DNA of 64,000 bases. Origin: Effrenium voratum (Eukaryota; Sar; Dinophyceae; Suessiales; Symbiodiniaceae). The notes under the pieces were generated by a model. It ran no database searches, was not told the origin of the DNA, and was given only the letters and a program-made list of their open reading frames with translations. Position 1 is the stretch's first letter. Every line of letters begins with the position of its first letter. The DNA is taken from contig CAUJNA010003299.1 in NCBI GenBank assembly GCA_963377175.1, positions 481,775 to 545,774 of the forward strand, written 5' to 3'. Both the position numbers and the translations under genes were made by a program. Below are positions 1 to 64,000 of the stretch, piece by piece.

Positions 1-676
1 AAGGCGGGACAGGCCAAAGGCGGGCAGAGGCAAGCCTGGGCGAGCAGAACTCCTGGTCGGCAGAACAGGCCCAGCGTGTGCAAAGCCCGAAGCAGGCATC
101 AACGGCTCCAAGCGAGCGTGGGAACGTAGCGAGGAGGCCAAGTCCACATTCATGGCATCCAGAGCAGGCACCGACGCCCCCGAGCTGGACACGCCAAAGG
201 CCGAAGGCCAAGAGTCCAGCCGGGCGAGGCTGCGGGGCAAGGGCGAAGATCCCAGGCGCGCCACATCGGAAGCCAAGGGTGCGGCGCCCACTTGGGCGAG
301 CGATCGGATCAAGGCCGCGGAACCCGACAGAGCGCTGCTCGCCACCGGCAGCGAGGACACCAAGCCCAAGCGCGCGCAGCCGGACGCGGAGGCAGACGGC
401 TCCGAGCGCGCCAGGCTGCGCAGAAGAGGCGAAGACCCCAGGCAGCCGGCGTCCAGCGCCGAAAGTGAAAACCCCAAGCGCCCAGAGCTGCGGGGAAACG
501 TCGGAAAGCCCATGTGCAGAGACTCCATGACCGAAAGTGTGAAGACGCTTCCCAACTGCACCAAGCCCAGAGTCAAAACCAAGAGGCCCAGATGGCAAAA
601 GCTGCGGAGAGACAGGGAGGAGCCCAAGCCGGCAGAACTAGACGCTGAGGCCGCAAAGTCAAAGCACGTAGAGCTC
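1..676 (-). CDS. Exon w22: repeat array running off the left edge
   Basis: Opens with the third base of Arg6, then SSTCFDF, and continues in rungs (for example FPRSSGRLG and FSLSALDAGCLG) to the window edge without a stop. The frame is open on the minus strand from 738 to 1; the first Met codon is at 526-528, but splicing makes a start there unnecessary. It includes type C with the VSSLPV rung. Confidence 0.72.

Positions 677-64000: not shown

Follow-up and report, generated by a model that had tools for sequence, protein, structure and literature searches.

Does a 64-kb stretch of DNA filled with a repeat of twelve residues encode one very large protein and, if so, where does the gene end and what would its product be? 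The stretch, hereafter the window, comprises 64,000 nucleotides (C3117:481775-545774) of a 1.156-Gb assembly. We analyzed it together with 100 kb on either side, 264,000 bases in all, 5,100 of them N.

A rung register on the minus strand

The repeat was modeled as a cyclic 36-state HMM, with three rung types (A, B and C) of 12 codons each, which was trained on four ORFs of the minus strand and then run across all six frames. Across the 264 kb, rung arrays were confined to the minus strand and no plus-strand segment reached 9 bits, the best plus-strand score in the window being 6.3 bits. Reversed-sequence controls peaked at 10.5 bits for the window and at 12.3 bits for the 264 kb, which makes micro-exons scoring 12-14 bits marginal but leaves those at 16-30 bits clear of the controls. 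The large arrays of the window contained 1,102 rungs (411 A, 436 B and 255 C), and the single register of about 1,100 rungs described earlier for this DNA is thus real. The three types mostly follow one another as ABC or ABABC. The A rung carries D at position 8; the B rung carries R-S at 19-20 followed by R, C, H or Q at 23; the C rung carries G at 32 and R at 35. The twelve-residue rung was confirmed, its constant spacing was not: the period is not always 12, and many A rungs following a C rung have two more residues. Such 14-residue rungs, with the two residues added at the start of the A rung, recur frequently in 11325-18884 and are rare or absent in the 5' arrays. We also observed that rung positions 5, 17 and 29 are almost exclusively occupied by pyrimidine-pyrimidine codons (Leu, Pro, Ser, some Phe), with Ala, Thr, Val and Ile nearly excluded, an odd residue set for a fold.

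At 11 bits or more, 17 exon-like blocks were found in the window, all on the minus strand, in place of the 22 exons initially counted; together they sum to 13,588 codons, in agreement with the estimate of about 13,600. Splice sites near the block ends were searched with a loose rule (any GT, GC or GA donor and an AG acceptor) and with a strict rule (an AG|G[TCA] donor and an AG|G acceptor); GC and GA donors, and a G after the acceptor AG, are described for Symbiodinium in PMC4083563. In the order of the gene, the window opens with a rung array at 54203..64000 (3,266 codons in the window, 3 in-frame TGA), which extends upstream to contig 546,593, and continues with the largest exon-like array of the window at 39190..53382 (4,731 codons in one frame, 3 in-frame TGA). 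Five micro-exons follow. The one at 38342..38407 (22 codons, 17 bits) joins the previous exon in register through strict AG|G sites, the one at 36576..36650 (25 codons, 18 bits) has loose sites only, and the one at 35093..35179 (29 codons, 30 bits) is linked in register by a strict AG|GAG donor to the following micro-exon, at 34285..34356 (24 codons, 16 bits). The fifth, at 33413..33475 (21 codons, 14 bits), is rather marginal and has a strict junction to the next array, at 28760..32659 (1,300 codons), with five in-frame stops (2 TGA, 2 TAG, 1 TAA). A strict junction leads from this array to a micro-exon at 27814..27921 (36 codons, 29 bits).

The array at 22281..26000 (1,240 codons) is stop-free and is interrupted at 25062-25097 by a 12-codon non-rung insertion, DLHFPNGFGSVN; a similar segment, DLYFPRGWAGEM, is present in the homologue P0002. 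Downstream lie a micro-exon at 20138..20236 (33 codons, 29 bits), for which only loose splice sites exist, and the array at 11325..18884 (2,520 codons), stop-free and rich in 14-residue rungs. A strict junction (13.5 bits) leads from it to a micro-exon at 10639..10767 (43 codons, 29 bits), with the acceptor inside the block. The remaining micro-exons are at 9614..9685 (24 codons, 14 bits, rather marginal), at 8537..8602 (22 codons, 12 bits, a candidate that is marginal against the reversed controls) and at 1498..1572 (25 codons, 19 bits), the last with a strict junction to the array that starts at 1..681 and runs about 18 kb past the window. The 7-kb gap between the micro-exons ending at 8537 and beginning at 1572 contains a long G/T-rich stretch with strong strand asymmetry (4001-8000, GC skew up to 0.74 and AT skew to -0.87). 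A search of the window gaps for further micro-exons with AG|G flanks gave nothing on the minus strand and a single match, taken as chance, on the plus strand, and Rfam and tRNA scans were empty.

Extent of the gene and splice junctions

Both ends of the register had been described as open, and rung blocks indeed continue in both directions, to contig 572,895 upstream and 442,639 downstream. Between these positions we counted 27 rung blocks with at least 27,338 rung codons. The best reading is that the window is the middle of a single minus-strand gene of about 142 kb, running on C3117 from about 572.9 kb down to 430.4 kb. The search for N-terminal exons with Symbiodinium models recovered only rungs among the matches listed.

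We then compared the true junctions of the whole gene with block pairs taken in the wrong order. Under the loose rule, the register was kept at 22 of 26 true junctions and in 417 of 676 wrong-order pairs (62%), so that the loose register argument is by itself nearly uninformative; with narrower search windows the values were 21/26 and 355/650. Under the strict rule, the register was kept at 8 of 26 true junctions against 32 of 676 wrong pairs. The preliminary description had the blocks joining exactly at all 21 junctions of the window, which is more than these values support. Eighteen of the 26 junctions have no strict AG|G sites in register, and the exact exon ends there are therefore unproven; four fail even the loose rule. 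The idea of one coding register spliced from many exons is nevertheless retained on the basis of codon use, the strict-splice register and a collinear 3' end, without the count of 22 exons.

In-frame stops fall on one residue of the B rung

The register is not stop-free. The window contains 11 in-frame stops on the minus strand, all at position 23 of the B rung (B23). TGA was found at 63068..63070, 62204..62206 and 58028..58030 in the first array, and at 52720..52722, 40744..40746 and 39196..39198 in the second, a strict AG|GA splice donor lying directly after the last of these. The 1,300-codon array has TGA at 31400..31402 and 29882..29884, TAG at 31076..31078 and 30638..30640, and TAA at 30278..30280. 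The HMM placed the stops at 40744..40746 and 31400..31402 at phase 35, and they belong to B rungs by their motifs (RSSV and RSRA, respectively).

In the 264 kb, we found 31 stops (28 TGA, 2 TAG and 1 TAA) in 28,704 rung codons, 28 of them in the giant gene and three in the array C3117:381775-387072. The HMM phase was 23 for 29 stops and 35 for the two mentioned above, both of which follow the R-S of a B rung. Two further stretches, C3628:219000-238999 and C3117:185000-204999, contained 10 and 2 stops, all at phase 23. When the three stretches were pooled, 43 of 43 stops in 39,620 rung codons were at B23. As the HMM penalty for a stop is equal at every phase, this phase was not built into the model.

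Positions other than B23 and C35 had 897 sense TRN codons (starting with TA or TG) and no stop. Position C35 differed from B23 in both comparisons made, for which the rung was assigned as B or C by the residue four places earlier (R/Q/H/K = B): TGA against TGC, TGT and TGG was 38 against 216 at B23 and 0 against 166 at C35 (Fisher p 1.9e-9), and the ratio of TGA to CGA was 38:78 and 0:40 (p 2.6e-6). At B23, TGA made up 15.0% of TGN and CGA 12.6% of CGN (p 0.38). The share of codons ending in A is thus alike in both sets, with no visible selection against the stop.

The rung register encodes protein

Between rungs, same-phase codons had a mean identity of 0.47 at the first base, 0.53 at the second and 0.38 at the third, where composition predicts 0.27, 0.29 and 0.31. 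At R19, arginine was written as CGN (518 codons) or AGR (171, 85 expected), and AGY, which encodes serine, was seen once against 56 expected. At S20, serine was written as AGY (469, 294 expected) or TCN (196, 60 expected), and AGR was seen once against 39 expected. No stop was observed at the 34 phases besides 23 and 35, against 108 expected, and 29 were observed at phase 23 against 36 expected; this expectation assumes independent codon positions, and residue constraint alone also lowers it. The stretch C3628:219000-238999 forms a single frame of 6,666 codons with no frameshift. By this amino-acid-level codon constraint, the rung register encodes protein.

Homologues and the C-terminal Peptidase_S74 domain

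From other sequence sets we collected 20 rung homologues, after scoring the 8,000 candidates that shared most words. In four homologues, P0019 (from EukProt) and P0022, P0025 and P0026 (from short JGI contigs), the rungs are followed by PF13884, with a score of 37.8 bits for P0019 (cut-off 22). The Symbiodinium and environmental rung proteins (P0001-P0022, P0025-P0028) have the same 12-residue rungs and, for several of them, the same S74 end, but their models are far shorter (483-2,364 aa) than the giant gene. Together with the GC and GA donors and the G after the acceptor AG, the Symbiodinium homologues suggest that the DNA comes from a dinoflagellate near the Symbiodiniaceae.

No function had been recognised for this DNA. 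Judged from the collinearity of its exons with P0019, the gene closes with a predicted Peptidase_S74 domain (intramolecular chaperone, ICA). By tblastn of the homologues, we located eight exons of the S74 region on the minus strand, collinear from contig 439,854 to 430,395, and a ninth was found by eye. The LHGTW exon at 439,854 was matched via P0017 and P0022, and the other seven via P0019: the SDRRLKKDVKPL exon (438,660), the KGEDAGALW exon (437,064), the RQLRPVSYYFKKGSESKYMRFGFI exon (435,997, 24/24 identity), the ADELESVVPQVVR exon (435,109), the GQQQVIERQQ exon (432,411), the DKLLSDFA exon (431,223) and the lysine-rich tail exon (430,457). The DLIALL exon, at about 434.1-434.2 kb, is the one identified by eye. 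Identity to P0019 was 79% in the SDRRLKK exon. The sequence contains a putative Ser-Lys dyad, T-S-D-R-R-L-K, with S and K five residues apart, the same spacing as in the dyad of MYRF (S587/K592; PMC8326128). The ICA structure in that paper served as our working model, a trimer with a beta-helical stalk and Ser-Lys self-cleavage.

In the whole assembly, PF13884 had 1,869 candidate places, at least 150 of them above the cut-off; the S74 exons of the gene itself were not among the 150 matches listed. The four loci whose ORFs were listed (L024, L026, L027 and L029) contain intronless, Asn-rich S74 ORFs of 565-925 aa, resembling viral fibre proteins or those of a virus-like element. No rung segment above 9 bits was present at the six S74 loci that we fetched.

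The S74 part of P0022 matched the phage tail-fibre family phrog_1980 (4.4e-15) and, weakly, PDB 6f45 (E 0.004). For the rungs, Pfam gave no match in four window arrays, NCBIfam and PHROGs none for one window array, and the PDB none for a 33-row rung profile; two single-sequence PDB matches (E 0.057 and 0.25) were taken as chance. The LpxA-type hexapeptide beta-helix reached at best 18.9 bits in P0022, for a cut-off of 231, and was not found in a 1,999-aa window array. We found no published name, function or description of the rung family in the open papers that we searched.

How the B23 stops may be read

Rungs interrupted by 28 in-frame stops within one gene could be those of a decaying pseudogene, or a non-coding DNA satellite with a unit stop-free by chance, and several rung positions do accept all pyrimidine-pyrimidine codons (L/P/S/F). 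We rejected both as highly improbable, on the amino-acid-level codon use and on the avoidance of stops at the other phases (0 against 108 expected). The frameshift-free 6,666 codons also argue against decay, as does the restriction of stops to one residue although CGA is commoner at R19 (88) than at B23 (56). A genome-wide change of the genetic code would turn the stops into sense codons, and all three are indeed found in frame, as in the reassignments reported for Amoebophrya (PMC6394959; PMC11453091) and for trypanosomatids, which place all three in coding frames. In the rung gene, however, the stops are limited to one residue of one repeat and are shunned at every position outside B23. In addition, 60 of 64 HSP90 exon matches in the assembly were stop-free, the other four having 1-3 stops; on this one gene family, genome-wide reassignment was rejected and appears scarcely credible. 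A stop that meant Arg, Cys or Trp at every position would be expected to be tolerated at C35 too, and it is not. Moreover, as C35 takes Arg, Cys and Trp, and R19 takes Arg, Gln and His, both without stops, residue identity alone is insufficient to explain the pattern. A signal in the B rung, editing in the B rung and tolerance of chain ends there remain as options.

Of these, we rank decoding by context before true termination and editing, since the frame runs on over thousands of codons, no counter-selection acts visibly on the stop and Met codons show no pattern of restarts. Stops would be tolerated at residue 23 of the B rung alone because the context of that rung, as RNA or as nascent peptide, leads to their decoding as sense. 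The base at +4 carries no read-through signature, being alike at 42 stops and 609 CGN sites, and read-through by +4 context was rejected. Re-initiation was rejected as well, for want of Met enrichment after the stops (the next Met lies a median of 28 codons after 37 stops and 18 after 518 R23 codons, p 0.23). The stops might instead be true terminators of several shorter rung proteins, a chain end doing no harm except where a B rung finishes and the S74 domain belonging to the last protein alone. This is a possible but rather unlikely reading, which fits the presence of stops at B23 alone without counter-selection there. It also fits the ends of the homologues: 17 of 20 end at the equivalent of B23 (at phase 22 exactly in 10, placed there by register in 3 and by motif alone in 4), whereas P0014, P0017 and P0019 do not. 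As the homologues are ORFs or gene models, what was deposited as their end is either a stop or the limit of the model. One such end is common to three Symbiodinium gene models: P0011, P0012 and P0015 all end at one B-rung residue (..PLPQSSA), and a stop or model end is thus shared across species. True termination accounts poorly for the frame that goes on for thousands of codons past the stops, for the absence of Met enrichment, and for the strict splice donor immediately behind one stop, whose junction keeps the register. Editing of the mRNA, for which we see less probability still, would remove the stops in the B rung, for example by U-to-C changes (giving CGA or CAG) or A-to-I changes (giving TGG). 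U-to-C would convert each of the three stops to Arg or Gln, both usual at B23, and all 12 types of nuclear mRNA editing are reported in Symbiodinium microadriaticum (PMC5357065). Yet stop-codon loss by editing is listed 0 and 1 times in the table of that paper, and edits of the first base would be needed at B23 and be absent at C35 and R19. In its full form, which is plausible although less likely than not, context decoding would mean that all three stops are decoded as sense at B23 by a signal of the B rung (RNA structure or nascent peptide) and are not counter-selected, in a genome otherwise using the standard code, giving an S74-chaperoned fibre of more than 27,000 residues.

A predicted S74-chaperoned fibre

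Taken more broadly, the probable product of the locus is a fibre protein of very great size, chaperoned by S74, built of rungs from a family that has no name and encoded by one gene of about 142 kb. One site of its rungs tolerates stops, most likely through decoding by context. The rung part would take up at least 27,338 codons of the 12-residue repeat, with the Peptidase_S74/ICA domain after it at the C-terminus. The rungs may assemble into a long fibre that is secreted or extracellular and probably trimeric. Its assembly would be initiated by the S74 domain, which would then cleave itself from the chain in the manner of phage tail spikes and MYRF. A beta-strand spacing of about 0.48 nm for each rung would give a fibre length of roughly 1 μm. 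The AlphaFold monomer of P0022 was of low confidence (pLDDT 41.5), with strands about 12 residues apart; a C-terminal helix at 409-476 reached pLDDT 78-83 at 441-470, within this poor monomeric model. For 216 rung residues of the window, no secondary structure was predicted (pLDDT 52.8, pTM 0.12). As no confident fold was obtained, the case for a fibre is drawn from the analogy with S74 proteins and from the period of the rungs, and the high proline content of the rungs calls for caution on a beta-helix.

Phage tail spikes and fibres, as well as MYRF, have a C-terminal S74 domain with S-D-R-R-L-K after a long repetitive stalk, as here. In this gene, however, the stalk has at least 27,338 codons, many exons and in-frame stops, and the rungs tested fit no Pfam, NCBIfam, PHROGs or PDB family. 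S74-chaperoned fibres are a known kind of protein, and what is new is the size, the rung family and the tolerance of stops at one residue. Titin has a similar giant repeat architecture and would be in the same size class if the rung gene is translated through, but the rung gene has an S74 end, and Pfam matched none of the four window arrays to which it was applied. The 28 in-frame stops interrupt the rung codons of the gene while the frame is kept, and the size class of a giant protein holds solely if all 28 are read through. A rung protein translated through would be among the longest proteins known and, in that case, the phage-type principle of S74 fibre folding would extend to micrometre-long fibres in a dinoflagellate-type alga. 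Regardless of size, stops at one residue in the arrays sampled offer a built-in test, with its own internal control, of how context affects stop decoding in a nuclear genome.

That the gene models of this family are all cut short at one place may likewise be due to the B23 stops. Further rung arrays lie on the same contig and strand, at C3117:381775-387072 and C3117:185000-204999 (L023, L032 and L033), which suggests a tandem cluster of giant rung genes.
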